A stretch of DNA of 64,000 nt. It comes from a virus. Location: IMG/VR virus record IMGVR_UViG_3300028364_000014, positions 1 to 64,000 of that record; one strand, 5' to 3'. Position numbers and translations under genes: made by a program. Under the pieces are notes generated by a model that worked only from the letters and a program-made list of their open reading frames with translations, made no database searches and was not told the origin of the DNA. Below, piece after piece: positions 1 to 30,108 of the stretch (within the stretch, counting starts at the first letter, position 1; each line of letters opens with the position of its first letter).

Positions 1-3000
1 AGGACCAGACATAGATGCTTTACCTTTAAGCTGGCTTGCTCGATACTTTTGTCCAAAGTCTGAATCCTTTAAATTATTCAAACCTCCAGTCAACTCTTGT
101 ACAATCTTTTGGGCTTCCTCTATTTTAGCGGTCATTTTATCAGAAAACTGTCCGCCACCACCAGTTGTAGCAGCCATACCTCTACCAGCACCTAACATTA
201 CTCCGGCATTATCTGCGATAGAATGAATATGTACAGGAACTACTTTTCCTGAATCATAAGTTAAAGGTCCTCCTCCTGTAAATGAGGGAATTCCTGTGCT
301 TCCACTACCCGTAGAGGCCATCCCTCCTCCTCCACCTACAGAAGTAGCACCAGTACCCATGCTTGGCGGAATGTTAGAAAGATTATATTGACTCCCCTCT
401 TTTAAACGGGATCTGGATTGTTTATACTTTTCTTCAAGGCTTAAATCTGATTTTTCAAATAAAGACCCCAAAAAATCACCCTCTTTAGCCTTAGTAGCAG
501 CAGCTTTAGTAAGCCTATCTAATTGTTCTAACAAAGCTAATTTTTTACGAATTTTGTCATTTTCTACATTAGTCTTCTCTTCATCATTAGGGTCTACCTG
601 ACTACGAACAAAAACCGCAGCATCGTCTGCGTACTTATCTTCTAATTGAATTTGGTCTGCCTTATCCATAACAGGCATTCCTACTGTACGATTTAATTGT
701 TCTAGTGCTTTATAAGCCTCATTAATTGGTTGATCCATGATATCTTTTACAAATGGTAGATGGTTATCTTGGGCTATTCTATTCATTGGAGCGATCTCTA
801 GAATATCTTTATTACCTTCTAACTGAGCATTTATACTCGCAATTTTTTTCTGGTCATTAAAAAGATTTTCTACAGTGGATTGCCCTAACAAAGCGTAACT
901 ACCTAAATCATCTTTCCCATAAGAACTAAGATCACCGAAAGAATCTTTTAAGTTTTTTGCTACAGCCCGAGCTTCTTTAAACTTCTTCTCAAAAACCTTA
1001 CGTTCGTCACTATCTCGTAATTTAAAATTCTTCAGTTCTGGTGCAGCCACATCATCGTATTTCTTATTATATCTAGTACGCTGGGAATAAGGACTAGCTG
1101 CAGAAGTCCTTAAATGATACAAAGGTGTAAGATGCTCTTCAGCCGTATTCTTTATATCTATGCCTTTTGATCTCATTTGATCCCCTATTAAATTTTCAGC
1201 ATACTCTCTAGGCTTCTTAGTACCTAATTTAATATTTCGTTTAGTAGGAGACATCTTGGCAAGATCCCGTTCCACACCCTCTATAGCAGCTTCTTGAATT
1301 TGTCTGCTTAATTCCTCTAAAAAACTATTAAAACCTAAAGCTTCAGTGATATAAGCCTTTAATGCGGAACGATCTAACTTACCTTCAACTTTGTCTTGTG
1401 CTAAAGAGGTGGCTTTAAATTTATCCCCTCCGCCTTGAGCTATCTTCAATGCATCATCAAATAAGTCACTAGTAGACATCCCGCCTAATCTTATACTAGT
1501 AGCTTTTTTCTGAGCATCAGAAAAATCCTTCAAATCACCATAGGATTTATTAGTCTCGATATTACTCTGTAGCTCAGCTACACCTTTAGGTCCTTTAGAT
1601 AATGACCCAACTATCTCACTGGCAATAGGAGTCTCACCAGCATGCTTAACATCCATGCCCTTCTGGATACCAACCCTCACTAGTTCGTTAACCATAGTAT
1701 TTAATTCATTACCCATACCTTTACCAAGCGACTTAAGGTCCATTGGGAATCTTTTCTGTAACTCGACAGAAGGACTAAAATCTGCTGTATCACTAATCTC
1801 TCCCTTGCCAAAACCTAGATTACTTTCAAATATCTTCAGTACTCTATTTAATCCCTCAGTATCTTGTCCAGTATTAATTTTATATAATTGAGCATTTACA
1901 GTATTAGCATGCTTAGCTTCGTATAATTCGTCTCTCACACCTAAATCAATAGATTTACCTACACCTTCTGGTAAGGTAGCTAGAGCCGCCCTAAGCATCT
2001 CAATGTTAATGCCTTTATCATCACCAAGTTTAACACTGTCCAAGGTCTTTACAACACTATCTATAGTTTTGTCATCTCTAAAAATATTTCTTGCTACATT
2101 TTCTAATACTTGTGCTGGTTCAGGGGTAACTCCGGTAGAGTTCGGTATATTAGAAAGAATATCCAACCGTTTTGATTTATCTAAATACTCTAGATCTTCG
2201 GTGAGAAAAGGGCTCTCTAAAAATTTAAAACCTTCTTGTTCTGGAAACTTCTTATTAAACTTCATCTGCTGCTCAGCAAATAAAAATTCACCTGTGGATT
2301 TTTCACCAGTAGTAGCACCGTAAGTAAATGAATCTCTAAACACTTGAGCAGTGGAATTCACATCTTTATCAAACGTGGTTATTTTTTTATAATGTTTTGC
2401 AATGTCTTGTCTAGCCGCCATTGTTTGAGCTGAATGAACTTCTATCTGATCACCGTCAAAATCAAGTTTTTGTTGGTGCGCTATATATTTAGGAATCACA
2501 TCAGATACGGCTTTATTTAATTGATTTATAGTACCAGTTAATTTTTTAATTTTATCAAGGTCTGGGTCTTCCTTATCCCATTCCTCTTCTCTTTTAGCAC
2601 TTAACCCTGTTATTACATCCTCTACTTTATTTTTAGCTTCAGCAAAACCACCTAGATCCATCTCTGGAACACCAGGAGCCATCAGAGTATGTTTAGCTAG
2701 AAATCTACCGCCCCCATCTTTACTCTCTTCTTTTAATAACTTAGCTTCATAGGGCTGAACTGAAGAAGTTCCAGTAAAAGGATAACGAACACTCTCTATA
2801 TAAGGAGTTAGTTCGTTTTTTAATTGGTCTCTAACATCCATCTTATTGACTTCATCCATACCAGAGGGATTACCTGTTTCTAATAATTCCCTATACTCCA
2901 ATAACTCTTTTAAAGTCTCCCCTTGAGTTTGCTTAACCCTTTTTAAATCCCCAGTATTATCTTGAGCGTACCTACGTTTAAACCTAGCTGGTAATTTTTT

Positions 3001-6000
3001 AGCATAATCCTCTGACACACCAAGTTCATGCTGTTTTAAGGTTACAAAACCTTTATCCTTTTGATTCTTAATTATCTCAGAATGACCTTTTGATACACCC
3101 TTAATTTTATTAGCGGCTTCTTGTAAAGATTTTATTTCTTCAGTACCAAGATCAGAGTCTTTTGACACACTTTCAAGAGCTTTAGCAAAAGCATTTAAGT
3201 CATCAGTCTTATCCACCATCGCCGTAGTGGCTTTAGCCATAATAGCTGGAATCTTACGTGTAAAAAAAGCTTCTTGTACAGAACCAGTTTTCCCTAAAAC
3301 AGTTTGAGCAAGCGTGTGATAATATTCTATTTTTGCTCTATCTAAACTATCCACAGCCTGCTGTAATCGATCTTCCTTAGTGGCAGGAGTAACCTTCAAC
3401 CCCTTTGCTAATTTATTAAGGTCTTGAACCCCAGATCTAAAACTCTCATCTATCATAGAGTCAACGTCATAACGTCCTTGATGTTTTAATGGAGAAGACT
3501 CACGTTTACTAGGATCTAACCCTATTATTTGATCAACAGCAGCATTAATAGTCTCAGAATAAGCTTGAGGTTCTTTTTGACCACGTTCCTTTTGTTTTGT
3601 GTAAAGCTGTCCCATAACGTAATCTTTTTTAGTTCCACCTCCCCTATTAAATGCCTGATCTACCTGACTATCCCCCATTACATCAGTCAAGCCGCGTAAT
3701 GTCGCCTCTAAACTAGATTGATCTTGCGGATCTAAAAAATCTTTATATTGTATTTTACCTTGCTCATTTCTACCTTTACCATCTACAGAAACTACACGAT
3801 CTACCTCTTCACGCAGCTCCTGCATATGTTTTATAATCCTACCCTTTGTATCAGATTTATTGGTACTACCGTCATCACTTATCTCGGCACCATTAATAAT
3901 ATCTTCAAGATGTTTTGCAGAGTTAATTACCTGAGTTAGTCTTCTGGATACCCCATCCAAGCCCCGTTCTCCAGCTAGTAAAGGTTCTGGATAAGTAGTC
4001 CTTGCTAAAGCCCCCGGCACATAAAAAGACTCTTTTTTACTTATATCCCTTGTATCTGGAATAGAAACATCCATGGCCCCTGGAAACTTGGCTGTATCTA
4101 ATACAGTACTAACTAAACTCCGTTCCGGATCTAAATCTTTACCAAAACCACCAGTAGACCCGTAAAAAGAATGTAACTCATCTAAACCTACCTTCTGAGC
4201 TGAACCTAACAAACTTTGTTTTAATTCAGGAGAGTCTGTATTTAAAACCTGTAACCCTTTTAAATACTCCCAGTGCTTTCTTGCGTCTAAAGGAATCTCA
4301 CCAGAAACTCCTTGCATCATTGCAGAATCTTTACCAAATATGGTAGAGTAGGCACCATAAGCCGGTATATTTAGTTTCTCACCTTTAACTTGATTCTCTA
4401 TGTCAGACTTGCTCCACGCTGGATTAGCACTTGGATCTTCAACTATCTCTACAAACTTAGGACCAACAAAACCTTTCCTAGCTTTACCAAACTCATCTAT
4501 AATACGTGAGTAATAACTACTTTTAGCTTCTAAAGCTGCAGCTGCGTTTGCTTCTGTAACCGCTTTATCTCGTTTAGATAAAGACTCGGTTTCATCTTCT
4601 GAAAGTACGCCCCCCTTAGTCTTTTTATCTCTAAGTCCCTTTGCCTCAGTACCAGATATCAAACCCCTACTGACTGTCATATCCTTTAACAAAGAATCAC
4701 GTATGGACCCTTGTGACTTTCCAGTGCCTGAAAAACCCAAAACTTTACTATATTCACCTAGACTAGGAAATAACTCTTTACCTTCTTCCATAGTACCAAG
4801 CATGCTTTTATAAGTATTAGTATCAAACTTAGTATTTAATGTTGTAGACCCTTGCCAGCCAGATCCAATTACGTTATTCATCATCATCTCAAGGCTTTCT
4901 GTTTGAAGACCACGTTTACCAGCATTACTAGAGTTAATTCTAATATCTATAGGTTTTTCTTCAAACTGTTTAGCTCCTTCTACTTCCTTACGATGTAACA
5001 TTTTTACACCAGCTATACCAGATAAACCTTGTTCTAACGAACCCCCAAAAGAATTAACCATTTTCTTGGCATCCTCAAAAAGATCCGATTGTACCATTGC
5101 ATCTTTTTCAGAAACCACCCCTGCTGATTTATCAGTAAACATACTCATCATAAATTTACTACCACTAGCTTTTAACTGATCCTTTAATAAATCAACGTCC
5201 TTACCTGTGTACTTGGTCCCTGTTTCAGAGTCCGGGTCACTTCTTAGAATAACTGCTCTATTTTTTTGTATAACCTCAGAAAGTAACGAACCCATACTTT
5301 TTGGAAGAATAGCAGTACCTAATCCTGCTTTTTCTCTCTCAGAATCACTTAGTACTTTTATATTTTTAGTCTTATAGGCGGCTTCTAATACAGACGAATC
5401 TTTAAACCCTTTAGAAGGAGATACAGCCACTCCCTTCATACCATACCTGGTAGTAAATTTTCTACCATAGTAGTTAAAAAAGGTTTCAGCTATCTTAGCG
5501 GTCTGTACGTTTATATCCTGTCCCCTAGCTACGGTAACAGCCTTCTGTATATCTGTTATTAGTGTTTTATCAGCCCTACCTCTATACTTTTGTGGCACAC
5601 CTAGTACATTTTGAAATACTCTATTAAGTTCATCTATTTGCGCTAACGGATCTGTATCAGTAAGTACATTACCCTGCCCTTTCTTTCCGCCTTCCCCTTT
5701 AATTCTAGATCTAATATCTTCCACACTGATTGCATTACTCGGTAGATCTCGTAAATTACCTTCACTTGTTATTAAATCCAATCTACCTAAAGCGTCAGGC
5801 TGCACGATTGTTTTAGTAACACTGGTAAGTACTTCTGCTAATTTACCTGAAATAACCATCTGGTCTTCAAATGTATTTGCAGTACTTCTTAACTCAGCTA
5901 TTACATTGAAACCATAACCTTGATCCCCGTACCTGCCGCCAGCAATCTGCTCGTTCTCCCTAGTAGACCTTAATCCTGGAAACTCAGTACCAGGCACACC

Positions 6001-9000
6001 TTTTTGTCTGTAAGCCATAGCATTAGTAGTACTGGCAATATTTCTGCCTGCCTGCTGAAATTGTTGTCCAAAAGGTGACATCTCAGGTAAAACATCAGAG
6101 TGCATTTTCAAATTAGTAGCCTTTAAACTACTAAGATATTTACTGTCTTCCTTAAAAGATGATCTGTATTCATCTAACGTAGAGGCGGAAGACTCAGGAA
6201 CACCAAGGGTAGATAAAGTTGTAACATCTTGTGGTATATTTCTAGCATACTCAGTAGTAGATAATACCTTAGATTCATTCATATAGTTTTTTAATACCAT
6301 ATTTAAATCACGTATATAACTTTTAGATTGATCAGGATCTAACCCAGCTGCACCTTTCTCATAAACCGGCGAGGTCATAGTCATCATATTGACTATTTTT
6401 TCTTGATGTGCATATCTTCTTGGTCTAGAGGGGTCTGCTATAGGTATTGTACCCACTAGCTTACTTAGATAAGACTCATACTCGCGAACTGTTTTATCAT
6501 GATTTGGATTTTTTGTAAGTTTATCAATTGGAGACTCTCCTGGAGCGTAATTGGATAGTACTTTTTCAAATACTTGGTATATATTTTTAAAATCAACTGT
6601 TTCCATACGTTTAACCACATCAAGAGCAGACACTCCAGCACCATCCATAGCTTGTATGAATTGCCCTACTGAAATTGAACCATCCTTTAAACTTTCACCC
6701 ATTTGATCTATATTTCTAATAGCTTCTACTTTAAATGTTTCAGGGTCACCTTGCTCCGTACGTGCTAACTCCGCTGATCTAACAATAGCCCCTTTTTTAT
6801 ATGTGCTCACTAATCTACCTTTATTTGCGTCACTTGCAGAAGCGAGATCTGTAAGCATCTCCTGAGCTAGTTTATTAGACTCAACATACTCTTTTCTATC
6901 AGGGCGTATACCTGCTTTTTGTATTCTTTCAGTGTACTTTTCTGGCATATTAGTACCAAAACTTTTAAGCTGATTAAATAGATTTTCAAAACCAGTTTTA
7001 TATTCGGCAAATTTAGGTATAACTCGTTGACTACCAGTAGATGTTTCAAATATTTGAGCACCTGTCTCAGTAAGACGTGCTGCGGGTACAGCTAAAGTCC
7101 TGGTAAGAGCACTCCTACTTTTACTACCTTTTGACGATCCAGCTACTCCAATATTAAGCCGTTTATTGGCTTCCATCTCCCCTAAAGTTTCCTGGTAAAT
7201 ACTCTCTAACTTACCAATATTCATACTATTAAGCATATCACTCATTTTTTTAGGAACGCCTGGACCAGCTTCATTAGTTTTATTTTTAATTCTAACTAAA
7301 TTTTCAGCAGAGTCTGGTTGAGAAAACTTCCAAGACTTTATATCATCAGTGGGTACACGCTTTAACCAAGTACCTACGGATTCACCAAGATTACTCCTAT
7401 TCTTATTTAAAAGGTCATTCTTAACTGTATCTTTAAATAAGCTTTTAAGTGCCTCAGGTGATTGAGTCCTATCAACAGGAGTAAAATCTTTATTATCCCG
7501 CCTCATTTTTTCAATTTCTTTAGCGATAGCCCCAACATCCGCAATTTGAAAAGTCCATTGTTTACCTGCTACTTTCTTATTAATACCAGAAGCAAGCTTA
7601 AAATATTCTGACGGATCTTGAGCGTCATCCCCCCTAAGAATTTTCCACTTTTGTGACTGAGTGATGACTTTAGTTTTTTTATCATAAGTTTGTTCAACAG
7701 GACCTCGCAATGCCAAGCCTTCTTCAACCTGCTTAATCATAAAATTCCTTAGATCCATTAAAGATTTAGCAGTAGTATTAACATTCTCTTTAATGATCTG
7801 TCTTGCTTTCTCTCCTGTATCAATACGGGTTTTAGGTGTGGGCAATTCATAATCTTTTCCTGGGGTAATTACATCTGATTTATACCCGTATAAAGTTTCT
7901 TTTGATGTTTTATACTTGTAGTCTGCAGGAGCCGATTTTTGACTAGTTTTAATATCCTTACCAAGTCTAAACTTCTCAGACTGCTCCCTCATACGCTGTC
8001 TTACTTCAATTTGTTTAAGTTTATCTTGCTCATTTGTACTTGGTAGTCTATTTTGAGAAGTAGAACCTGTAGTTCCAGAAAAAGGATTAGATGTTTGTTG
8101 GCTATTTATAGCGTCTGTTAAATCAGATAACTTGTCACCAAGAGAGGCTATTAACCTAGTAATATCACGAGGTAATATTTCCTTAGACAATAAGTTACCA
8201 GCAGTTTTAGTGTCTATACCACTAGTAATCACAGCTTTAAGTTTATTTGGGTCGTCTTTAGAAGCAGCAATCTGTGTTACTACTTTCATAATAGCGTCGT
8301 AAAGGCCCTGTGATGACTGGTTTTTAGGTTCAACGTAAAGATTAGATCTTAAAGTATCTTTAAGTACTGATAAAAACTGGTTAAGGTCAGAAAATATTTT
8401 TTCATCGGGCTTATTTCCTGTAGTACTTGAAGCGGATACTGCGACATTAAATTGTTGTTTAAAATCAGACTGTAGTTGAGTTATAAGTTTTTGAGAATCA
8501 GTAACTAGTTCAATATTAAACGGTGTAGAGTCAGCCTTCTTTCTAAGCTTTTCTAGATCACTTATTATAGTATTTTTAGACACAGAAGCAGTGAAATCGA
8601 CATTCTTACTCCTACCTAAGTCGTCTAAATCTTTTTTTGCACCTTTAAGACTTTTATCTGTAACTACAGATAAGGGAACCTCAATACCGGCTAATGACTT
8701 TATATCTTTAATAAAAGTAGCTACTTCTCCAGCACCTTCTACAACAAGTTCTAATTTAGCATTCCAATCTTTAACCTCTTTATTATTGGTAACACCTTTA
8801 GGTACTAATTCTTTAGGTATCATAGATACAGCGTCAGTTAACTTAACTAAATTCCCCTTTAAAGCATCAGCATCTATAGACCCAGAAGGACTACCCTTCA
8901 ATTCTTCTACTAGCTTAGTTAGCTGCTTCATAACAACAATAAAATCAGGAACACTCTCTAACTTTTTAGCTATAGCATCTAAAGATTTTCCCACCTCAGA

Positions 9001-9921
9001 CTCTTTTGCTTGAGGGATTTTGTTTATTACTTTAGATATTTCTGAAGTTATTACTTGAGCTAATTTTAAAGGATCTTCAGTGGCTTTTTTTACCACCGCA
9101 GTCTTCTTCTTAACAGCGGACGCCCTAAAACTTGTCACACTTTCTTTAAAAGCTGATGCCCCATCATTAAACTCTTTAGGAAGCTTCTTAACTTCACTAC
9201 GCACCAAAGTAATATCAGCAATTAACTCTTTAAAAGCAGTACCCATTTGAGCCATCAAACTTAAATACGTTTTAAACTCGGTTATATCAAAACCACCACC
9301 ACTTTTACGCTGCTCATTTACAGCCTTACCAGCAGAAGCTATTTTAGTAAAACTTGACTCTAATCTTTTTAAAATAGCAGAAATATCTTTGAGAGAAGCT
9401 ATCATATCAGTAGGCATAGCTGCTTTTAAATTAGAATTCAATGCATTCTCAATACCTTTAAAAACTGAGGGATCTATTGTTACTACACCCTTAGTGTTTT
9501 TAGATAACTCATCTGCAAAGTTTTTATATGCGATTTCTCTTTGCTTACTAGATATTTTCAATGCGGAAGCAACATCTACCAGGCCTGACTCTGGAGACTT
9601 TTGTACTTTAGCAGCTACATCTTTAACAGACTGCTTAGTGATGTCCACAACAAGGCGTTGTAACATATTGGCTAATTCAGTCTTGGTTACACCACCACTA
9701 TCTCCAGACGCATTACTAGTTATAACCTTACTAAGGATAGTAGGGAGTTCTTTTTTAATAGCAGATGCTACCGCATTAACGATACCGTCCTGCGTGCTTG
9801 ACATCCCCTTATTAAACTCAGTGTATAATTGCTTTAAGCTGGAATTTGGGGCTGACTGTTCATTTGCCCCTGAAGTGGTACCAGTAGATTTAATATTTAT
9901 ATTGACGTTTTTTTCGCCCAA
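1..9921 (-). CDS. Giant virion RNA polymerase / tail-interior protein (partial, 3' end beyond window)
   Basis: An uninterrupted frame of 3307 codons runs from a TTG start at 9921 to the window edge. GGAGG lies seven bases upstream of the TTG. Residues about 1483-1497 read YGRKFTTRYGMKGV, matching the beta-subunit GDKMAGRHGNKGV with the two catalytic-type lysines (K1488, K1496) eight residues apart. Residues about 1657-1685 resemble the beta segment that follows the barrel in cellular enzymes. Residues 2486-2492 read LDFDGDQ followed by IEVHSA, matching the beta-prime NADFDGDQMAVH metal-binding loop (D2487, D2489, D2491). The first 700 residues are polar and helix-rich with no metal loop; Gly/Ser-rich sequence lies near 3190. 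No membrane segments are obvious. Its position after the tail tube and small tail genes is that of a tape measure protein. I infer a packaged two-barrel polymerase, as known for crAss-like phages and YonO, possibly fused to a tail-interior domain. Confidence 0.85.
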   Translation of the reverse strand, partial: MGEKNVNINIKSTGTTSGANEQSAPNSSLKQLYTEFNKGMSSTQDGIVNAVASAIKKELPTILSKVITSNASGDSGGVTKTELANMLQRLVVDITKQSVKDVAAKVQKSPESGLVDVASALKISSKQREIAYKNFADELSKNTKGVVTIDPSVFKGIENALNSNLKAAMPTDMIASLKDISAILKRLESSFTKIASAGKAVNEQRKSGGGFDITEFKTYLSLMAQMGTAFKELIADITLVRSEVKKLPKEFNDGASAFKESVTSFRASAVKKKTAVVKKATEDPLKLAQVITSEISKVINKIPQAKESEVGKSLDAIAKKLESVPDFIVVMKQLTKLVEELKGSPSGSIDADALKGNLVKLTDAVSMIPKELVPKGVTNNKEVKDWNAKLELVVEGAGEVATFIKDIKSLAGIEVPLSVVTDKSLKGAKKDLDDLGRSKNVDFTASVSKNTIISDLEKLRKKADSTPFNIELVTDSQKLITQLQSDFKQQFNVAVSASSTTGNKPDEKIFSDLNQFLSVLKDTLRSNLYVEPKNQSSQGLYDAIMKVVTQIAASKDDPNKLKAVITSGIDTKTAGNLLSKEILPRDITRLIASLGDKLSDLTDAINSQQTSNPFSGTTGSTSQNRLPSTNEQDKLKQIEVRQRMREQSEKFRLGKDIKTSQKSAPADYKYKTSKETLYGYKSDVITPGKDYELPTPKTRIDTGEKARQIIKENVNTTAKSLMDLRNFMIKQVEEGLALRGPVEQTYDKKTKVITQSQKWKILRGDDAQDPSEYFKLASGINKKVAGKQWTFQIADVGAIAKEIEKMRRDNKDFTPVDRTQSPEALKSLFKDTVKNDLLNKNRSNLGESVGTWLKRVPTDDIKSWKFSQPDSAENLVRIKNKTNEAGPGVPKKMSDMLNSMNIGKLESIYQETLGEMEANKRLNIGVAGSSKGSKSRSALTRTLAVPAARLTETGAQIFETSTGSQRVIPKFAEYKTGFENLFNQLKSFGTNMPEKYTERIQKAGIRPDRKEYVESNKLAQEMLTDLASASDANKGRLVSTYKKGAIVRSAELARTEQGDPETFKVEAIRNIDQMGESLKDGSISVGQFIQAMDGAGVSALDVVKRMETVDFKNIYQVFEKVLSNYAPGESPIDKLTKNPNHDKTVREYESYLSKLVGTIPIADPSRPRRYAHQEKIVNMMTMTSPVYEKGAAGLDPDQSKSYIRDLNMVLKNYMNESKVLSTTEYARNIPQDVTTLSTLGVPESSASTLDEYRSSFKEDSKYLSSLKATNLKMHSDVLPEMSPFGQQFQQAGRNIASTTNAMAYRQKGVPGTEFPGLRSTRENEQIAGGRYGDQGYGFNVIAELRSTANTFEDQMVISGKLAEVLTSVTKTIVQPDALGRLDLITSEGNLRDLPSNAISVEDIRSRIKGEGGKKGQGNVLTDTDPLAQIDELNRVFQNVLGVPQKYRGRADKTLITDIQKAVTVARGQDINVQTAKIAETFFNYYGRKFTTRYGMKGVAVSPSKGFKDSSVLEAAYKTKNIKVLSDSEREKAGLGTAILPKSMGSLLSEVIQKNRAVILRSDPDSETGTKYTGKDVDLLKDQLKASGSKFMMSMFTDKSAGVVSEKDAMVQSDLFEDAKKMVNSFGGSLEQGLSGIAGVKMLHRKEVEGAKQFEEKPIDIRINSSNAGKRGLQTESLEMMMNNVIGSGWQGSTTLNTKFDTNTYKSMLGTMEEGKELFPSLGEYSKVLGFSGTGKSQGSIRDSLLKDMTVSRGLISGTEAKGLRDKKTKGGVLSEDETESLSKRDKAVTEANAAAALEAKSSYYSRIIDEFGKARKGFVGPKFVEIVEDPSANPAWSKSDIENQVKGEKLNIPAYGAYSTIFGKDSAMMQGVSGEIPLDARKHWEYLKGLQVLNTDSPELKQSLLGSAQKVGLDELHSFYGSTGGFGKDLDPERSLVSTVLDTAKFPGAMDVSIPDTRDISKKESFYVPGALARTTYPEPLLAGERGLDGVSRRLTQVINSAKHLEDIINGAEISDDGSTNKSDTKGRIIKHMQELREEVDRVVSVDGKGRNEQGKIQYKDFLDPQDQSSLEATLRGLTDVMGDSQVDQAFNRGGGTKKDYVMGQLYTKQKERGQKEPQAYSETINAAVDQIIGLDPSKRESSPLKHQGRYDVDSMIDESFRSGVQDLNKLAKGLKVTPATKEDRLQQAVDSLDRAKIEYYHTLAQTVLGKTGSVQEAFFTRKIPAIMAKATTAMVDKTDDLNAFAKALESVSKDSDLGTEEIKSLQEAANKIKGVSKGHSEIIKNQKDKGFVTLKQHELGVSEDYAKKLPARFKRRYAQDNTGDLKRVKQTQGETLKELLEYRELLETGNPSGMDEVNKMDVRDQLKNELTPYIESVRYPFTGTSSVQPYEAKLLKEESKDGGGRFLAKHTLMAPGVPEMDLGGFAEAKNKVEDVITGLSAKREEEWDKEDPDLDKIKKLTGTINQLNKAVSDVIPKYIAHQQKLDFDGDQIEVHSAQTMAARQDIAKHYKKITTFDKDVNSTAQVFRDSFTYGATTGEKSTGEFLFAEQQMKFNKKFPEQEGFKFLESPFLTEDLEYLDKSKRLDILSNIPNSTGVTPEPAQVLENVARNIFRDDKTIDSVVKTLDSVKLGDDKGINIEMLRAALATLPEGVGKSIDLGVRDELYEAKHANTVNAQLYKINTGQDTEGLNRVLKIFESNLGFGKGEISDTADFSPSVELQKRFPMDLKSLGKGMGNELNTMVNELVRVGIQKGMDVKHAGETPIASEIVGSLSKGPKGVAELQSNIETNKSYGDLKDFSDAQKKATSIRLGGMSTSDLFDDALKIAQGGGDKFKATSLAQDKVEGKLDRSALKAYITEALGFNSFLEELSRQIQEAAIEGVERDLAKMSPTKRNIKLGTKKPREYAENLIGDQMRSKGIDIKNTAEEHLTPLYHLRTSAASPYSQRTRYNKKYDDVAAPELKNFKLRDSDERKVFEKKFKEARAVAKNLKDSFGDLSSYGKDDLGSYALLGQSTVENLFNDQKKIASINAQLEGNKDILEIAPMNRIAQDNHLPFVKDIMDQPINEAYKALEQLNRTVGMPVMDKADQIQLEDKYADDAAVFVRSQVDPNDEEKTNVENDKIRKKLALLEQLDRLTKAAATKAKEGDFLGSLFEKSDLSLEEKYKQSRSRLKEGSQYNLSNIPPSMGTGATSVGGGGGMASTGSGSTGIPSFTGGGPLTYDSGKVVPVHIHSIADNAGVMLGAGRGMAATTGGGGQFSDKMTAKIEEAQKIVQELTGGLNNLKDSDFGQKYRASQLKGKASMSGP

Positions 9922-10001
9922 GATAGTGCCTCCAAAATTTAATTTATACGAAACTATGGTATAATTAAATACCCTTTAATTCTACACAAGTTACTTAATT
10001 C

Positions 10002-11006
10002 CTATCCGCGTTTCGTCCTTTTTTTCACGTCAGCTCTATCTTTTAATTTTTTTGCCTCTCTAGGTGTATCATACGTTATATCACGATACAGAGAGTTAGA
10101 AGCAGTAATAATAACCTCTTCTTGATCAAATGCAGATAACTTACCAGGTGTCTTATGTTTGCTTCGCCGTGAAGCGTCCTCGCGTGTCCTTTCCTCATAG
10201 AATGATTTCATATAAGCATCTAATGAATCATCATCCTCAATAACTAAGTCACTTGGTCGATCCTCTGGCATCATTTGATAAATACTATCGTAGTAATTAG
10301 ACCAATATGCTAAGCTTAACATATCAGTAGTGTAATCAGAAGAAGGTTTTCCGAACAACTTTTCTGAAACCTTTTGACTATTTACATACCTAATACGCCA
10401 TAAACTATGTCTAGCTATATAACGAATTATATTGGTAGGTATACCATAATAAAACCTTAAAAAAGTATTTAAAACTTCTTCTCTAAAAGATATATTTGTA
10501 GTCTCTTTAAAGTACTTTAATTTACTCCAGTATTTATTGTACCTATGGTCATAGGTACTATCCCAACATAAATATAAAGTACGTTCCTCATTAGCTCTAA
10601 CTTCAGCAGACATCATCATCCTAGAAGATTTTTTGCTAGATATTACAAACATTTCTTCTTTGATCTTTTGTATAATTTTCTTTATACGATCTTGATTAGC
10701 CCTAACTCTAGTAGTCTTCCCTAATAAAATTTTTTGGGCATCCAACTGTGACTCTAATTTAGATAATTTTTTTTCATCTTCAGCTGTAAAAATATTACGA
10801 TCTCTTATCAATTTCTCTAAGTCTATATCATTCAGGAGACCCTCATCGAGAGCCTCCTGATATGCCATTGTATAGATAGCATCTGCGTATAGTTTTACAT
10901 CATTAGTGGGATACTTAAAGATTATAAACTCTTTATTTATTTGAGTTATTAACTTACCAGAAGAAATTCTCACTAAGTATTGATCTACTTCAGCATCTGT
11001 TATCAT
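10002..11006 (-). CDS. Tail-region protein, function unknown
   Basis: This 334-residue protein lies between the major tail protein block and the giant polymerase gene, where tail assembly chaperones are usually found. It is charged and helical. There is a helical middle section, roughly residues 90-150, and a Lys/Arg-rich C-terminal tail ending KKRTKRG. I recognise no catalytic motif. It starts with ATG twelve bases after the preceding stop, so it is probably cotranscribed with it. A tail assembly chaperone or minor tail role is suggested by position only. Confidence 0.7.
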   Translation of the reverse strand: MITDAEVDQYLVRISSGKLITQINKEFIIFKYPTNDVKLYADAIYTMAYQEALDEGLLNDIDLEKLIRDRNIFTAEDEKKLSKLESQLDAQKILLGKTTRVRANQDRIKKIIQKIKEEMFVISSKKSSRMMMSAEVRANEERTLYLCWDSTYDHRYNKYWSKLKYFKETTNISFREEVLNTFLRFYYGIPTNIIRYIARHSLWRIRYVNSQKVSEKLFGKPSSDYTTDMLSLAYWSNYYDSIYQMMPEDRPSDLVIEDDDSLDAYMKSFYEERTREDASRRSKHKTPGKLSAFDQEEVIITASNSLYRDITYDTPREAKKLKDRADVKKRTKRG

Positions 11007-11018
11007 TCTTTTGTGCCT

Positions 11019-11789
11019 TTATTTTTTCTTAGTACTCGTGGATTTTTTAACTGGTGCCTTTTTAACACCTTCTTTAATAGAGGAATCATCTGTTGATTTA
11101 GGGGTTTCAATCTTACCAGGCTTATTTACATCTTTCTCCAAATCAACTAGTCTTGCTTTTTCAGCCTCTACAGAAGCCTGATTAATAATATCTGTTTGTA
11201 CTTCTTGCATTGCTACTGCCTCTGGTGTATTATCAAGAAAGTCAGACTCATATCCCTGCAAAAATAACATAACTTCATACCTTGATTTCAATGACAGTGC
11301 CTGATCTTTTGACGACAAAAAAGCATCATAATCTGGCCAAACCTTGGTACCGTCATCATACTCAATCATACGAGATGTTAGTGCCTCAAGTCTAGCGTCA
11401 TCCGCCATCTGCTCACAAGTGTTACTCATAGGACCACTAAGACGCTGATTCCACTGAAAAAGATTATCTCGTGCTTTAGAAATCTGAATTGCCAACTCAG
11501 CTTTTTCTTCATTATTGCTAGCTTCGCGTAGTCTAAGAATATACTCATTCAGAATAGTAGTTAACTCCTCTACTCTGTTTTCAAAAGCTTCTCCAATCAC
11601 CCCGCGCCTCTTAAGAATATCCAACATCTCTGCACTAGTAGTAATACCCTCCACTAAACAATTAGTGTATGTTTTACTATACTGCCAATCAGCCTTTCTA
11701 ATAGCATCAGCACTTGGAGTACCAATAAAATACTCTGTCTCATCCGTACCTAAAAAACTTCTTCGATCACTTAAATTTTCGTTACTCAT
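11019..11789 (-). CDS. Putative tail assembly chaperone
   Basis: This 256-residue, strongly acidic and helical protein is followed by a Lys/Thr-rich tail (KKSTSTKKK). It lies directly downstream of the tail tube gene and upstream of the giant tail-interior gene, the usual place for tail assembly chaperones. It has a good Shine-Dalgarno (AGGAGAAAA) before the ATG. I saw no obvious slippery sequence joining it to the next frame, so the classical frameshift product is not supported. The function is inferred from order, not from a motif. Confidence 0.65.
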   Translation of the reverse strand: MSNENLSDRRSFLGTDETEYFIGTPSADAIRKADWQYSKTYTNCLVEGITTSAEMLDILKRRGVIGEAFENRVEELTTILNEYILRLREASNNEEKAELAIQISKARDNLFQWNQRLSGPMSNTCEQMADDARLEALTSRMIEYDDGTKVWPDYDAFLSSKDQALSLKSRYEVMLFLQGYESDFLDNTPEAVAMQEVQTDIINQASVEAEKARLVDLEKDVNKPGKIETPKSTDDSSIKEGVKKAPVKKSTSTKKK

Positions 11790-11804
11790 TTTTAATTTTC
11801 TCCT

Positions 11805-12059
11805 TTACCCTTTATTCCTAAACTCAATTACTTCTTCAGTGAGTCTGGTATATTCAATGTTATAGTTATCCAACTCTTTAGCCATATTTCGCATACAATT
11901 GTTCCCTGCCCTTAGGATTTTAGATCTTAATTGTTTAAAATTTTCTGTAGGACAAGCCACGTGTGCAAAATCTAAAGACTGCTCCATCATTTTAGTGATT
12001 TCTTTCCTAGTATCTTGTATTAATCTAGCTCTGCTAGCTTCAATATATTTTTTATCCAT
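11805..12059 (-). CDS. Small helical tail-region protein
   Basis: An 84-residue, highly charged and probably all-helical protein lies between the major tail protein and the putative chaperone gene. It has an ATG start preceded by AAGGAAGGAAAAGGGC. I recognise no family. Size and place fit a small chaperone or tail completion factor. Confidence 0.6.
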   Translation of the reverse strand: MDKKYIEASRARLIQDTRKEITKMMEQSLDFAHVACPTENFKQLRSKILRAGNNCMRNMAKELDNYNIEYTRLTEEVIEFRNKG

Positions 12060-12122
12060 AGCCCTTTTCCTTCCTTTACCGTATTTATATAAGGGAGGGA
12101 ATTACCCCTCCCCTAATCAAAA

Positions 12123-13599
12123 TTATGCGTTACGCGCAAGCCTAGCTTTTGCAGTAGCATAATTAATATCACCTTTTATAACGTATAGATCATTAGTGGT
12201 TCTAAATCCAAAAGTCTGAGTAGCATTAGATCCAACATCTAGAGACATACCTTCATCAGTAATCTTCAGGTTTTTAACTACAACCGTTTTTAGAGCACGT
12301 TCAGTATCCCCAGCTGCATAGGTATCAAGAACACCGTCAAGGAAGTAATCCTCACCGTCAAGAGCAGAACCACTGACAACTTTTCTATCAGTACTAGTTC
12401 CTCCAGCCTCCTCATCTGTTTGTTCATATACCTTAACTACGAGGATAAGATTATCCTTAATCATAAGATCACTAAGTTTAATATCCCCCATAGTATCCAA
12501 ATCATCCAACTTTCCTGCAAACTTTGCCCAGTTCTCCAAATCACCAGCTGTAGTATCTACAGTCAATGTAATAGGAATAGGCATAGTTAGAGGTCTATCA
12601 TAAGGTCCTAAATGCCCTAACTCAGTAAGAGGCTCACGAGTCAAATCAACTGAAATATTAGCACTCGTCAAACGCCAAGCATTAGCAAACGCTGTAGCAG
12701 AAGAATCCGGATCTACGATATACACCTCTACCTGACCCTGTCTAAGGGCACCAACACTATCAGGTCTTTCAGTAGGCTCTTCAAGCTCAACAAAATAATT
12801 ATTAGTAGTAGGAGTATAAGCATCCGCAGAGTAAATCAACTGAAGCCTGTCACCATCTGCTGGAGCATTAGTTCCTGTAGGTAGATAAAGCTTATGTTGT
12901 GCTGGCATAGTGGTATTATCATAAACATAAGTAGTCGCAGCAGCTGCCGTGCCGGTTACAACCTCAACGTTAATCATCTCATTTTTACTTTCATCGAACC
13001 AAGTAACAGCAGGAGCTCCACTATCACTCTTCCGTAGAAAACCAAGCCCTGTAGTTAGTGTAGCTACATCATTACCAGCCCCTAAGGTCATCATAACAAA
13101 TCCATCTGTTAGAGCCCCAGCTGATAAAAGGGTAAACTCCTCGTAGTTTACAAACCTACCATCATTTAACAACCACATCTTGTTATCAGTCTCTGCTCCA
13201 TAATTCTCTGTAGCATTTGCTCCAGTAGAGTAACTAAATTCGAGACTATTAACAAAAAGCTCATCAAGAAACAATGTCTGATCAATATTATTAGACAATG
13301 TTCCAATAGAACATTCCTCTTGTACTGGTGCCCATAAAGTTACACCAGGCAAGTTACCACAAGTTACTGCAAAGTCTGCTAGAGATACCCCATGCAGATA
13401 ATTAGCAGTCCCTGTTGGATCTGATACCAAATTCGCATTACCATCAACTGCGGTAATAGCCATCTCAACCTTGGCTGGGATAACCTGAGCCAATGTGGCT
13501 AAAGTCTTAACATCCCCAAAGTCATTAGTGTTCAATGTTACTGAAACGGCAGGGACATCATCTACTACGTCGATTATATCTAAGTGACCAAGCTCAAAT
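12123..13599 (-). CDS. Major tail (tube) protein, exon 2
   Basis: This is the second exon of a gene split by a group I intron. Joined to exon 1 at 14666-14775 it makes a 528-residue protein. The exon encodes FELGHLDIIDVV before the internal TTG at 13535 that simple ORF finding would use as a start, so the usual-looking N-terminus is artificial. It is beta-rich with many Thr, Ala and Gly. The stretch around residues 310-350 (SANISVDLTREPLTELGHLG) is like repeated domains seen in large phage tail tube proteins. It lies just before the small tail genes and the giant tail-interior gene. No tail sheath is visible in the window, so a siphovirus-like tail is possible. Confidence 0.75.
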
Positions 13600-14665
13600 C
13601 ATTCTGTTACTTTTAGTGACCTCAGCTTTACCTGTTAGGCGGGGAAAGTTCTTCGACTCTCCCTCTTGGCGTCTCCGCCAAGTTCAGACTGTACCTTCAC
13701 CCTTTTTAAAAGGGGTTTCACACGCAGTCGTTGGGGAACAAATTTATAATGTATACATTCTGGTAATATATATGTTACCATATCCAGTAAATCATGTAAG
13801 TATTTAGTTTTACCTAGTCTTATAGTACTATTATAAGTATCAATACTTATAGTACCTTTAAAAAATTTACGTAAAGCTACTATTAAGACCTCTATTTCTT
13901 CTAAAGTAAAACTACATGTAGCAATTGAACCTCTTAAGGCTGTTTTACTACCATGAAAAGAAAAACTTCCATCATCAGCTAACCAAATACAAAGAGCTAA
14001 TAAATCTAAATCTTCTATTACATCAGTAATTACTCTTTTTTTACCTTTAACATAAAACTTATTAAAGTACTCAGTTATATCTGGATGAGCAATTGTGTTA
14101 ATAAAATAGTAACCTGAAGAGTATGAATTTTTACCATTAATAATTTTAGGTCCTGGTTTTTCTGCTAAAGTTATTTTTTTAACAAATGGAGATAATAAAT
14201 CTTTTTTCCATTTTAAGTAATCTAATTGTTTAGTACAATGACCAATTTGCAATCTAGCATTTTTAGATTTCCTATTCTTTAGCAAAGAGCCGTCTCCTAA
14301 AATAGAGCCTAATATAACAGATCTATGAACATCTGATATTTCTACAGATCTTAACTCTTCATAAACAGTCATACAACTAGGTAAAAGTTCTATATCATAA
14401 GATTTATACCACGAATATATAGTACTATAGGGTATAGATAACTCTGTAGCAACTTTGGCCACAGATTTATGACAATCTATTAATTCTTGAAGTTTTTCTT
14501 TACTTACTTTATTTCTTTTCATTATAAATCCTTTCCTGCGGATTGTCTATATCTTTAAGATTATTACTACCAATTCAGGTTAGTACCTAAAGCTTAACTA
14601 GAGTTTCCCGCATACCGTGAAATTTTTTCTCTTACTTGTTACCAAATAAGGGACACATTTAGTTT
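13600..14665 (-). ncRNA. Group I intron in the major tail gene
   Basis: The 1066-nt intron meets the base-pairing rules. Exon 1 ends in GGACAU, which pairs with the internal guide GUGUCC at 14651-14656, leaving the required U-G pair at the 5' splice site. The adjacent AAAU at 14657-14660 pairs with AUUU, the first bases of exon 2 (P10). The intron ends in G. Splicing restores the frame: GAC AT joined to A TTT gives Asp-Ile-Phe. A P7-like pair GACTG (13725-13729) with CAGTC (13687-13691) lies near the 3' end, in an arrangement like the phage td intron. The intron holds a LAGLIDADG endonuclease gene that runs into the core. Confidence 0.88.
13635..14522 (-). CDS. Intron-encoded LAGLIDADG homing endonuclease
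   Basis: This 295-residue protein lies wholly inside the group I intron. An N-terminal helix-turn-helix of about 45 residues (SVAKVATELSIPYSTIYSWY) is followed by two LAGLIDADG-like helices: VILGSILGDGSLL near residues 68-80 and LALCIWLADDGSF near 173-185. Both carry the acidic residue that forms the active site. The last 30 codons overlap the conserved intron core, which is common when such genes invade introns. It probably cuts intronless alleles of the tail gene and drives homing of the intron. Confidence 0.88.
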   Translation of the reverse strand: MKRNKVSKEKLQELIDCHKSVAKVATELSIPYSTIYSWYKSYDIELLPSCMTVYEELRSVEISDVHRSVILGSILGDGSLLKNRKSKNARLQIGHCTKQLDYLKWKKDLLSPFVKKITLAEKPGPKIINGKNSYSSGYYFINTIAHPDITEYFNKFYVKGKKRVITDVIEDLDLLALCIWLADDGSFSFHGSKTALRGSIATCSFTLEEIEVLIVALRKFFKGTISIDTYNSTIRLGKTKYLHDLLDMVTYILPECIHYKFVPQRLRVKPLLKRVKVQSELGGDAKRESRRTFPA

Positions 14666-14775
14666 ATGTCCTCGCTCGTAAATGATGTCGTGGTTCCTAG
14701 AGACTGTACTCGATAGAGCACTTCTCCATTAACCCAAACTGATTGTGAAGCATAGATTATTCTATTTCTTGCCAT
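14666..14775 (-). CDS. Major tail (tube) protein, exon 1
   Basis: Exon 1 starts with ATG at 14775 behind a strong AGGAGG and encodes 36 codons plus two bases (MARNRIIYASQSVWVNGEVL at the start). Read without splicing it meets a stop one codon past the intron boundary. Splicing to 13599 continues the frame into FELGHLDII. The exon is too short for most gene finders and would be missed; the protein would then lack about 58 N-terminal residues. Confidence 0.85.
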
Positions 14776-14867
14776 GTTTTAAATCCTCCTGTTAATTTTT
14801 TTTTATACTGCTTTCAGGTTGGTATGATAATTCATGTCCGTATTACCAGTTATATATTGAGGCTTTA

Positions 14868-15929: not shown

Positions 15930-15945
15930 ACTGTGACCCTTTCCT

Positions 15946-16986: not shown

Positions 16987-16996
16987 AACAAGCTCC

Positions 16997-17629
16997 TTAA
17001 TATTTTGTTTTGATCAGTCTAGTGCTTTTTTCGTTTGCTTCGTCTATCCAAGCGTCTATATTTTCCTCATAATACTCATCTGCGGCGCCAAATACTTCGT
17101 CTTCTAGAGGCGGTACATTAGAAAAAGGAAATTTAATCAATTCTCGACTTAAAACAGTTTTCTCTTTATTTTTAAGACTAGGAGTATACTGTATTATATA
17201 TACTCGTTTTTTTCTTGGAACAGTAGAGTCGATAGGATCAGCATTAATAGTTGTTTTACCTGTTATTTTTTCCAAATCATCATGACTAACCTCTACATAA
17301 GTACCAGGAGTACCCTCTAAAATACGTTCTATTATTTTCATACCATTAAAGTCAAAATTTAATAGATCAGGTAAAATAATACGTACACCAGTAGTAGGAT
17401 GTTCCCCTATAAACTTAAATGCATCAAGAGACTCTTGAAATATTTTTCTAAATAAAGCAGGATCGGTGTTACTGTTTGGATCAGTTATCCTATCAGAAAG
17501 CCCATCAAAACCTGTCAATATAAGGTCTTTAAAATTAGGTACTTCAGCCACTAAACGCTCTTTTAAATGATAAGTAAAAGCACGTTCTATATCTTTTACT
17601 ACCCTAGTTATTCTAGAAGAATCAGCCAT
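16997..17629 (-). CDS. Head-tail joining protein (putative)
   Basis: A 210-residue protein whose ATG overlaps the stop of the preceding gene by one base (TAATG), indicating translational coupling. The N-terminus is helical and charged and the C-terminus acidic. No motif is recognised. Length, order after the capsid genes and coupling to the next connector-like gene suggest a neck or tail completion component. Confidence 0.6.
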   Translation of the reverse strand: MADSSRITRVVKDIERAFTYHLKERLVAEVPNFKDLILTGFDGLSDRITDPNSNTDPALFRKIFQESLDAFKFIGEHPTTGVRIILPDLLNFDFNGMKIIERILEGTPGTYVEVSHDDLEKITGKTTINADPIDSTVPRKKRVYIIQYTPSLKNKEKTVLSRELIKFPFSNVPPLEDEVFGAADEYYEENIDAWIDEANEKSTRLIKTKY

Positions 17630-18222: not shown

Positions 18223-18236
18223 ATTAAGCTCTCCTT

Positions 18237-19085: not shown

Positions 19086-19088
19086 AGT

Positions 19089-20248: not shown

Positions 20249-20270
20249 AATAGGTCATAACTAATTTTAT

Positions 20271-22884: not shown

Positions 22885-23958
22885 TTATAAACTTCTATCT
22901 ATAATACCCATGCCCAGCATTCTCGAATCTAGGCAAGCGAATCCGAGCTCTGCCCAACCAAAGAAACCTTGTTTCTGAACACGAAGAAGAGTGGGATCAT
23001 CATGAGCCTCATATTCTTTACGAATAGGCATAACAAGAGAATCATTAACACTAAGGTCAAACCCCATAATCTGTGTCTCGCCGAGATCACTAATAGTACC
23101 ATCAGCAGCAGTCACATTAGGATTATCAAGTGTATACCCATTATACTGCTCAGTACCAGCAGTGGCCACAAACTTACCATAAGCAGAGGCACTACCATTA
23201 ATGTTATAAAGTCCTGTTGCTCCTAGATGTTGAATCTCATGAAGAGTTACATTCCAAATACTACCCATACCTGACGCCTGAAAAATCTCACGCCTAGTAA
23301 CAGGGTCAATATCAGTGTCAGTCCACTCTCTGATGTCAGCAGCATCCTCTGGGGATACATAAAGATCAGTAAGTGTCCTGCCTGTCCTCTTAAATCCTAC
23401 AATCATCTTATTAATTAATTCCTTAGAAAGATATCCAGCTCCAGCAGCAGAAGGTGCGATCTCATAAAGAGGTGCAGGGCGTGAACCAAGTAGCCCTTTT
23501 CCTGAGAAAGCAGAAGTAGCAGCAGGCATAATAACACGCCAACCACACTCCTCCTCATAATTTGCTAGATCTTTTGCGGCACGCGTTGCTGCTCTTGAGG
23601 CAATATCAATCCTGGAATCCCTTGCGTATGTAATTTTCCAGTCAGCTGCCGCATCAATAGTAAACGTAGGAACGTATACCTCTTCACCAATACCTTCGAT
23701 GAAGTTCTGTGCAACATAACCAAGTCCTGGAAGTACCCATACTGGAATCTCAAAATCTTCTGCGACGGGATAAACCGCCTGAGCGCCCGGGCCTAATCTT
23801 TCCACTGTAAAGAGCTGACGCATAATAGAGTCGAGCTCGATCTTTTGTAGTATTGGAGTTGTTAAAGCAGCTGCAAATGCTCGATAAGCAGCCAAACCTT
23901 CAGGGGTATTAACCTCTGCGGTTGCTCTAAAAAGCTCCATCATTTCCTTTCTTTCCAT
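22885..23958 (-). CDS. Major capsid protein
   Basis: A 357-residue protein with features of HK97-fold capsid proteins: a helical start, an E-loop-like region near residues 60-100 (GPGAQAVYPVAEDFEIPVW), a long helix region (RDSRIDIASRAATRAAKDLA) resembling the spine helix, and a beta-rich C-terminal A-domain pattern (LYVSPEDAADIREW, GLYNINGSASAYGKF). It lies downstream of protease-like, decoration-like and scaffold-like genes in the order expected for tailed phages. The ribosome site AGGAGG is strong. No N-terminal delta domain is obvious, which fits a separate scaffold gene. Confidence 0.8.
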   Translation of the reverse strand: MERKEMMELFRATAEVNTPEGLAAYRAFAAALTTPILQKIELDSIMRQLFTVERLGPGAQAVYPVAEDFEIPVWVLPGLGYVAQNFIEGIGEEVYVPTFTIDAAADWKITYARDSRIDIASRAATRAAKDLANYEEECGWRVIMPAATSAFSGKGLLGSRPAPLYEIAPSAAGAGYLSKELINKMIVGFKRTGRTLTDLYVSPEDAADIREWTDTDIDPVTRREIFQASGMGSIWNVTLHEIQHLGATGLYNINGSASAYGKFVATAGTEQYNGYTLDNPNVTAADGTISDLGETQIMGFDLSVNDSLVMPIRKEYEAHDDPTLLRVQKQGFFGWAELGFACLDSRMLGMGIIDRSL

Positions 23959-27958: not shown

Positions 27959-28136
27959 ATGACACCGCTTTTATATTATACCTATTCTTAAGCACCACCC
28001 GATGCCAACCTTTATGCCCCTTCTGACAAATACAATCTAATTTATAACCATTATTGACATACTCTTTACTAAGTAAAGTATAATCTTCTGAATCAAATGA
28101 CTCTTTAACAAATGCATATGTAAGTCTCTTACTCAT
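27951..28136 (-). pseudogene. Deleted remnant of a zinc-ribbon HNH endonuclease
   Basis: This 61-codon frame begins like the modular HNH enzymes at 18237 and 38954 (MSKRLTYAFVKESFDSEDYT, then LDCICQKGHKGW) and then jumps straight to their common C-terminal end (WHRVVLKNRYNIK). Most of the first module after QKGH, any further modules and the whole HNH domain are missing, while the frame is kept. It is best explained by an internal deletion, perhaps through recombination between similar sequences. Confidence 0.75.
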
Positions 28137-30108
28137 ACCTAACTACCTCTACAGCTTCCAAAAATTCTGCGTATTCTGTATCATCTAAAACACTTCTTGC
28201 GCCACCCAGAAAAGCCGAATACTGTTCATCATCCATAACACTTATATCCCCAATAGCCGCTGTCTTTTTTGGTTTAGTAGGCTTACTACCAGGTTGTTTG
28301 TCTGGGTTTGTATTAGGTTTTTTCTTTGTCTTTGTTTCACCAGCCGGTCTTCCTTTACTAGGTGTTCCTGTAGGTGATTTTTGCTTAGGCTGAACTCCTG
28401 GACCATCTACTGCTTTTTGAAACGGGCTGCCAATTATACCAAAAATACCACCTTCTACTAAAGGCAACTCTGTTTGCATATTCTTTAATTCATTATCGTA
28501 ATCAAACCCTAAGGCCTCTAAGGCTGTTTGATATGACAACATCCTTCTATCGACTAGCGAACTCAATGTGCTCATATATAATACCTCATCACGTAACACA
28601 CTATCGTCCCAACGTATTTTAGGAAAACGATCAAAACCCATTGCCTCTGCTATTTGTCTATATTCCTTATAAATCCATTTCTCTACTTGCCGACGGGCAT
28701 AATGAATCTCCTCCATTAGACCTTTAGTAAGTAAATTTACTTCTGCTGCATTGATATCCCCTGTTCCATCTATTATGGCACGAGTTACAGCAAGACCTGC
28801 TGTCATATCCTCGTTTACCTGTTTGTACTTATCTTGCCCTAAAATAGCTTCAATCTCGGGCGAAACTATTTTTTGAATATCCAGTGTATGGTTCCATACC
28901 ACATCAAATGCTTTTGATGGACTATTAAATAACTGAGCAACTGTCTCTAATTCTTGCTGACTAACGACTGGGTACTCATCATTACCTATGGTAATCTTTA
29001 GAATATAATTAGAAATACCATCAAGTGTACTTACATCAGCCTCTTGTAGTGATTGTTTATATTTTATAGTATCCAATATCCTAGTTACCCTAGGTCTTGC
29101 ATAACGTTCATAAGGCTGTTTTCTATAAGTAACCATTCCCACAAGTCTCGAATCTAGTTGAAACTCACCGCCTTGCTCTGCTGCAGATTTAATCTCTTTA
29201 GGTAGTGACTTAATTAGTTCTTTTTCTTCTTCTGTTAGTTCTCCAGAAGCTTTTTGTAATAACTGACCTAGCTCTTGTGGGGGAGTTAATTTTACAGCTA
29301 CTTTATCAAATAAAAGGTTACCTTCTATATTAACTAGTTGATGATTTAAAACTGTGTATGAGGAGGGAAGAAATCCTTTGGACCATATATTTTTTTTGGC
29401 GGCTTTTTCAACCTCCATTAACTGCTCAAAAGAAGCACCTTTTTTCTTAGCAGACTCGACAAGCTTTGCCACTTCCGCATCTTTTTCATCTTCAAATTCA
29501 GCATGTAATTTATGAAGCCTGACAGTTTCTGAAGCAGAGTCGCCTTTTTTAGTCTTCTGCCCTGGTACGGGTGATAAAAAAGATACTCTAGGTTCATACT
29601 TAGATAAAACTTTATAAGTTACAACATGTCCTATCTTAAAAAAATCAAGAAAAATCCACTCTAGTACTTCTTTAAAATCTACATCAAATGTCCAGGTATC
29701 ATAAAACTGTTTGATATTCTCATCATCAATATCATTTTCAAACCCTTTCATTGACAAAGAGGCTAAGGCGTTTGTAGCAGAACCAACCAATGGATCAGTG
29801 TAATAATGTTTTTCTGCTTGTTTATATAGTGTTTTAGGGTCTTCGTCATAAGGATTTTTACTCAGGGCTAAATCCAAAGTTTGCCGTGAAGTATAGTCTC
29901 TATTTATAGTTGCAGCAGATTCAAGCCTAGGTTTAATAGCCATACCAGGTTTATCTAATATAGCTAGATTACGTTTATTTGGTTTGAGCATAAAAACAGA
30001 TTGACCAGTCTCTCTATTTATCTCTAGAGATTCTATACCAGCATCTGGGTATCTATTTTGTAGATCAGAAGTTAGTTTATTTATATCTATTATATTATCA
30101 TCTGCCAT
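28129..30108 (-). CDS. Portal protein
   Basis: A 659-residue protein just downstream of the terminase block. It has portal-like features: an N-terminal region with YYTDPLVGSATNALASL, a clip/stem-like middle (ILDTIKYKQSLQEADVSTLD), and a long helical part (RRQVEKWIYKEYRQIAEAMG, WDDSVLRDEVLYMSTLSSLV) as seen in SPP1-type portals. A Pro/Lys/Thr-rich linker (KTKKKPNTNPDKQPGSKPTK) precedes a short C-terminal helix. Size and order agree with a portal forming the packaging ring. Confidence 0.75.
   Translation of the reverse strand: MADDNIIDINKLTSDLQNRYPDAGIESLEINRETGQSVFMLKPNKRNLAILDKPGMAIKPRLESAATINRDYTSRQTLDLALSKNPYDEDPKTLYKQAEKHYYTDPLVGSATNALASLSMKGFENDIDDENIKQFYDTWTFDVDFKEVLEWIFLDFFKIGHVVTYKVLSKYEPRVSFLSPVPGQKTKKGDSASETVRLHKLHAEFEDEKDAEVAKLVESAKKKGASFEQLMEVEKAAKKNIWSKGFLPSSYTVLNHQLVNIEGNLLFDKVAVKLTPPQELGQLLQKASGELTEEEKELIKSLPKEIKSAAEQGGEFQLDSRLVGMVTYRKQPYERYARPRVTRILDTIKYKQSLQEADVSTLDGISNYILKITIGNDEYPVVSQQELETVAQLFNSPSKAFDVVWNHTLDIQKIVSPEIEAILGQDKYKQVNEDMTAGLAVTRAIIDGTGDINAAEVNLLTKGLMEEIHYARRQVEKWIYKEYRQIAEAMGFDRFPKIRWDDSVLRDEVLYMSTLSSLVDRRMLSYQTALEALGFDYDNELKNMQTELPLVEGGIFGIIGSPFQKAVDGPGVQPKQKSPTGTPSKGRPAGETKTKKKPNTNPDKQPGSKPTKPKKTAAIGDISVMDDEQYSAFLGGARSVLDDTEYAEFLEAVEVVRYE

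Follow-up and report, generated by a model that had tools for sequence, protein, structure and literature searches.

A predicted single-chain RNA polymerase fused to a giant phage tape-measure protein

Introduction

A tape measure and an RNA polymerase are joined in one chain in the Thermus phage P23-45. Its gp96, a 5002-residue tape measure, carries an N-terminal virion RNA polymerase, and the same genome encodes gp64, a second, non-virion RNA polymerase (Chaban et al. 2024, PMC10770324). No report of a tape-measure/RNA polymerase fusion other than gp96 was found in a literature search. Virion-borne or single-chain polymerases occur in other phages. Gp66 of the crAss-like phage phi14:2 (PDB 6VR4) is a single-chain two-barrel polymerase carried in virions; unlike the protein described here, it shows a DFDID metal motif context and has no long-tail tape measure joined to it. 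The prophage SPbeta encodes YonO, a single-chain relative of beta/beta-prime (PMC5467207), likened to our protein by its published description. Jumbo phages have two polymerases, one of them injected (review, PMC7598289), as may be the case here, judging from the genes alone; their enzymes are made of several polypeptides and are not fused to a tape measure.

The gene analyzed here lies at one end of an IMG/VR contig of 237,910 bp, which has no end repeat; the first 64,000 nucleotides of the contig are referred to as the window. The first-pass annotation had considered a fusion of polymerase and tape measure unusual. A single Thermus phage group was known to feature it, and gp96 (PMC10770324) makes the arrangement not unprecedented. 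The giant protein and gp96 both carry DFDGD and R-x-P motifs (RNP in gp96) N-terminal to the tape measure within one giant chain, and both genomes hold a second single-chain polymerase gene. In contrast to gp96, the giant protein has a 1250-residue N-terminal extension before the polymerase, a K-x7-K motif similar to that of the cellular enzyme, and helical sequence inserted into the beta-like half; chains in its family reach 8654 codons, and contigs 238 kb. No direct sequence similarity to gp96 was found (hhalign E 0.07-0.27), and a weak link passes through the free polymerase P0006 of the same genome (66%, 73 columns around DFDGD). Because the direct comparison is negative, the giant protein is placed outside the gp96 sequence family, and may be viewed as a very divergent functional parallel, alike in architecture and probably in logic. 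Similarity to phi14:2 gp66 was not directly detectable either.

Results

The giant open reading frame and its neighbourhood

Reading of the sequence bears out that the minus strand of positions 1-9921 is a single open frame of 3307 codons starting at a TTG, as annotated earlier. The 3' end of the frame is cut by the first base of the contig, and only the N-terminal part of the protein is present. An attempt to regain the C-terminus by connecting the two contig ends was rejected, as the ends do not overlap and the far end carries the frame of a fibre-like gene. The features are:

1..9921, minus strand: giant open frame, at least 3307 codons, N-terminal and polymerase parts of the predicted tape-measure/RNA polymerase fusion
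9929..9933, minus strand: ribosome-binding site GGAGG, read from the sequence, 7 nt before the TTG, which is a normal spacing
6175..9921, minus strand: N-terminal extension, residues 1-1249, conservation weaker among relatives

Searched directly against Pfam, PHROG and PDB sequences, the giant protein of the window gave nothing significant, family libraries returned no direct match to any RNA polymerase profile, and residues 1-1249 have no Pfam match.

The gene had been assigned to the tape-measure slot, which fits the gene order: it follows the terminase, portal, major head and tail-region genes. The same head-to-tail order is found in the contig G002 (28-88% identity), and the tail part is kept also in G001. 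Genes of this region are, from the giant gene outward:

10002..11006, minus strand: gene directly upstream of the tape-measure gene, 58.9% identical to G002 and 51.5% to G001
11019..11789, minus strand: conserved tail-region gene, 66.7% to G002, 57.3% to G001
12123..13535, minus strand: conserved tail-region gene, 470 aa, possible tube or sheath, 69.6% to G002, 60.0% to G001; no Pfam or PHROG match
22885..23958, minus strand: major head protein (phrog_2522, E 1.4e-10)
28129..30108, minus strand: portal protein (phrog_16240, E 6.9e-9)
30829..33819, minus strand: terminase large subunit (phrog_2, E 3.9e-20) with LAGLIDADG-type intein-like insert (endonuclease profiles at 225-480)

An intein-like LAGLIDADG insert is found also in a helicase (L003:15461-17962, plus strand), and several HNH endonuclease genes reside in the window. 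The product of 55732-56661 (minus strand) resembles by eye a metacaspase/caspase-like protease, featuring HFSGHGSQ and an acidic loop.

Relatives and the tape-measure core

The first search revealed two near-identical copies of the giant gene. Relatives of the giant protein are encoded by about 40 IMG/VR contigs, and an alignment-based search of the viral collection identified 42 loci. When 2.9 million viral contigs were scanned at the DNA level for nothing but the lysine motif, 44 loci were marked, nearly all belonging to the same family, and a few members were added. The open frames on the contigs of the longest relatives measure 6910 to 8654 codons (7939 in G002); residues 238-3300 of the giant protein are 35.8% identical to the G002 protein. 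The 28 non-redundant members are about 28-58% identical outside the invariant motifs. No relative of the polymerase region was found by tblastn in about 50,000 GenBank phages. GTDB genomes hold no relative of the giant protein that could be found.

The frames of G002 and L047 match PhageMin_Tail (PF10145; E 1e-30 and 9e-26) starting near residue 4050, and tape-measure PHROGs to E 1e-89 in the same frame. The core is recognized by Pfam in G002, L047, L082 and L083, and a model made from four seeds detects it in every first-lineage locus with a long enough frame (34/34); loci without it are all truncated before it. The window frame itself ends about 750 residues before the place where the core is expected from the relatives. 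As read in the relatives, the fusion of polymerase region and tape measure is real, since every long enough relative has the downstream PF10145 core. In both lineages the polymerase is N-terminal to the tape measure in one polypeptide.

The second lineage (L082, L083, L119) features GSKxxTxGGxKG (GGKxxTxGGxKG in L083) and DxDGD, and has the same tape-measure core and giant frames. L135 is also counted in this lineage, whose metal motif is D(F/L)DGD and which aligns to the first lineage at 99.8% over 916 columns.

L047 (4534) and L049 (4842) were rejected as short full-length members, because tape-measure sequence goes on past the stop, in L047 in another frame; these stops are probably sequencing indels. 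The split gene of L071 was likewise rejected as a subunit split. At 6329-20452 of this locus the giant gene is broken by in-frame TAG codons and measures 4738 codons when these are read through; TAG recoding in this phage is possible. In G002, RecB/Cas4-like PD-(D/E)XK motifs are seen at residues about 3390-3450, just past the polymerase region, and a metallopeptidase-like HELSH motif close to the C-terminal end of the 7939-codon frame. Both are motif readings, and the two regions have no Pfam match.

Conserved motifs of the polymerase region

The two catalytic signatures reported earlier, GRKFTTRYGMKG at 1486-1497 (K1488, K1496) and DFDGDQ at 2487-2492, are present in the giant frame as described. 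Their presence goes beyond chance: of all frames of 100 codons or more on the contig, the giant frame alone has the beta-type pattern, and it shares D[FY]DGD only with a second polymerase-like gene. Elements of the region are, all on the minus strand:

4672..6174: beta-like (DPBB-B) region, residues 1250-1750, with an insertion at about 1500-1655; aligned by hhalign to the free polymerase (probability 95%, E 4e-8)
5860..5871: FEDQ 1351-1354, putative counterpart of beta FED (E813, D814 in E. coli)
5431..5466: GRKFTTRYGMKG 1486-1497, putative counterpart of beta GDKMAGRHGNKG
4912..4953: PIDIRINSSNAGKR 1657-1670, equated by eye with beta VDIVLNPLGVPSR, and aligned to KIDVIVSAKSVKRR of the free polymerase
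2779..2787: R-x-P 2379-2381, putative counterpart of beta-prime NRAP
2446..2463: DFDGDQ 2487-2492, predicted metal-binding motif of the beta-prime-like barrel
1636..1665: QKGMDVKHAG 2753-2762, helix-like conserved segment after the barrel

Residues which never vary in the 28 non-redundant members are FEDQ1351-1354, G1486, R1487, K1488, T1491, R1492, G1494, K1496, G1497, R1670, R2379, P2381, D2487, D2489, G2490 and D2491. They appear to map in order to FED, GDKMAGRHGNKG, the VDIVLNP..SR segment, NRAP and NADFDGD of E. coli beta/beta-prime, a correspondence drawn by eye and partly backed by hhalign. Q2753, G2755, D2757, K2759 and G2762 are also invariant in the last segment, whose KH is kept in the free polymerase as well; a possible assignment of this segment is the bridge-helix/trigger region.

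The region might descend from an RNA polymerase that is no longer catalytic and now has only a structural or DNA-gripping role within the tape measure. Large insertions between the motifs and the lack of detectable similarity to gp96 would fit such a history. Catalytic residues should decay in a dead enzyme; instead, every metal-binding aspartate and each of the two active-site lysines is unchanged across the 28 members, and lysines and DxDGD are kept also in the second, far diverged lineage, which makes this origin improbable.

Homology to RNA polymerases

The giant protein shares with cellular beta/beta-prime the order FED, K-x7-K, VDI..R, R-x-P, DFDGDQ, but is one chain with long helical insertions. 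Aligned directly to rpoB and rpoC by hhalign, it gives matches that fall on the right motifs and are not significant alone: the best local match to rpoB is at FEDQ/rpoB FED, and DFDGDQ is placed on rpoC 460. Among Pfam families, PF00623 (Rpb1 domain 2) is the one most often matched by 13 members scanned singly (7/13), with weak scores (best E 0.0019).

The connection is provided by the free polymerase. P0006 (contig 112994-116533, plus strand, 1180 codons) matches Rpb2_6 (PF00562, E 1e-4) and Rpb1_2 (PF00623, E 3e-4) in the expected order. Its alignment to rpoB spans 220 columns (probability 67%). G007, a contig of 228 kb that belongs to the giant-protein family, encodes a relative 44% identical to P0006. 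The profile of the giant protein aligns collinearly to P0006 over 454 columns (93%, E 2.5e-7); adding the second lineage raises the match to 98.8%, E 9e-17. These alignments span 454-462 columns. Reversed-profile controls gave E about 0.5. Homology of the giant protein to RNA polymerases is best supported indirectly, by its collinearity with a protein that itself matches RNA polymerase Pfam domains. The reading of the region as a single-chain polymerase of the two-barrel type is upheld through P0006 and the invariant motifs, the barrels being predicted from the sequence. YonO, which is not known to be a virion protein or to be fused to a tape measure, more likely finds its functional counterpart in P0006 than in the giant protein. 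A further frame of 1442 codons in a short viral contig (L013, 1690-6015, minus strand), with GDKLSGRYGNKG and DFDGDQIAVHVP, resembles a fused beta/beta-prime polymerase and is unlike the giant-protein family.

AlphaFold models are of low confidence, with mean pLDDT 66 for residues 1330-2529 (13 sequences) and 60 for residues 1240-1750 (31 sequences). Strands of moderate confidence lie near R-x-P and DFDGD; the lysine-motif region and the beta-like barrel have no resolved fold. Foldseek gave no match at E <= 0.001 with these models; many of the weak PDB matches are to beta-prime/Rpb1 chains. The best BFVD match that merited a check, to a protein of Acinetobacter phage ME3 (probability 0.98), was discarded, as both motifs are absent from it. 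A two-barrel fold is what the sequence data would predict.

The low confidence of these models, together with the missing direct profile match of the window protein, is what one would see if the motifs had arisen by chance or convergence in a tape-measure protein of coiled-coil type that has no kinship with RNA polymerase. Such an origin is contradicted by the invariance of the motifs and by the collinear alignment, about 460 columns long, to a protein matching RNA polymerase Pfam domains; with negative reversed controls and the same motifs in a second tape-measure lineage, it is extremely improbable.

Cysteine exclusion

The giant protein of the window has no cysteine in 3307 residues. Other frames of the same genome average 1.9% cysteine, and absence by chance from the giant protein has a probability of about 2e-28. 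The polymerase region of the 28 non-redundant members contains none in 46,604 residues; because the members are related, this amounts to a single evolutionary statement and not to 28 independent ones. In the free polymerase 15 of 1144 residues are cysteines, and in its G007 relative 18 of 1088. Four tape measures from phages outside the giant-protein group have none. P23-45 gp96 also lacks cysteine (0 of 5002), a comparison confounded by thermophily, gp64 being devoid of cysteine as well; phi14:2 gp66 is low in cysteine (2/2180).

Being cysteine-free, the embedded polymerase obeys the composition rule of its tape-measure partner, which suggests that it travels in the tail. Virion packaging is supported indirectly by cysteine exclusion, head-tail synteny and promoter layout. 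Alternatively, an active polymerase could be cut from the tape-measure precursor and work as an ordinary late or non-virion enzyme, without being injected. Proteolysis is possible, given the HELSH motif near the C-terminus of one relative, which is a motif only. We give this route little credence: cysteine exclusion covers the whole polymerase region, matching tape measures and not the free polymerase; a second non-virion enzyme would be redundant given the free polymerase gene; and gp96 is full-sized in P23-45 virions (PMC10770324).

Promoters and genome arms

The contig divides into a plus-strand arm (about 59-165 kb), where the free polymerase is encoded together with a helicase and 16 tRNAs, and a minus-strand arm. 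Sites of the TTGACA-N16-18-TATATT type occur 20 times on the minus strand of the minus arm, where 2.2 would be expected, and do not exceed background in the plus arm. Upstream regions with a sigma70-type promoter were 12/54 versus 0/58 (Fisher p 8e-5). The sites, about 20 strong sigma70-type promoters similar to one another, lie on the minus strand at contig 171-232 kb and at window positions 43701 and 53590. The layout suggests a division of labour between the two arms, which is put forward as a hypothesis, since a search of the plus arm for a promoter motif specific to the phage enzyme gave no clear signal over shuffled sequence. The arm of the free polymerase, with no recognizable host promoters, poses a problem that an injected polymerase would solve. 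A Ro60 homologue (TROVE E 7e-37, Ro60 vWA domain E 1e-50) is encoded at L002:13692-15338 (contig 97692-99338, plus strand).

Discussion

The giant gene most probably encodes a tape-measure protein with a fused single-chain two-barrel virion RNA polymerase, carried in the tail, injected, and transcribing the genes that enter first. In this scheme a DNA-dependent RNA polymerase would be fused upstream of the tape-measure core, and the giant protein would most likely reside in the tail tube and set the tail length. At infection it would be ejected ahead of the DNA or with it, and the cysteine-free polymerase domain would refold at the inner side of the envelope. The injected enzyme would then transcribe the first-entering genes, proposed to include that of the free polymerase, on the arm devoid of host-type promoters. 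Catalysis, packaging, ejection and the choice of genes transcribed are features we infer for the giant protein.

The finding widens the distribution of the fusion from one Thermus phage group to about 40 contigs and a second, far diverged lineage. The motifs of the giant family are nearer to the cellular enzyme than those of P23-45, and many sequences are now available to study how a polymerase is built into a tail. Cysteine exclusion offers a simple sequence test for tail-travelling proteins, and the arms of the genome yield a concrete prediction as to which half the injected enzyme reads. A broader view, which we hold tentatively and consider somewhat doubtful, is that this is an old and widespread device of giant environmental phages: a cysteine-free chain would thread the tail, and the enzyme would refold at the inner membrane, transcribe the arm free of host promoters, start the infection and help to pull the genome in, while the host RNA polymerase would read the other arm.
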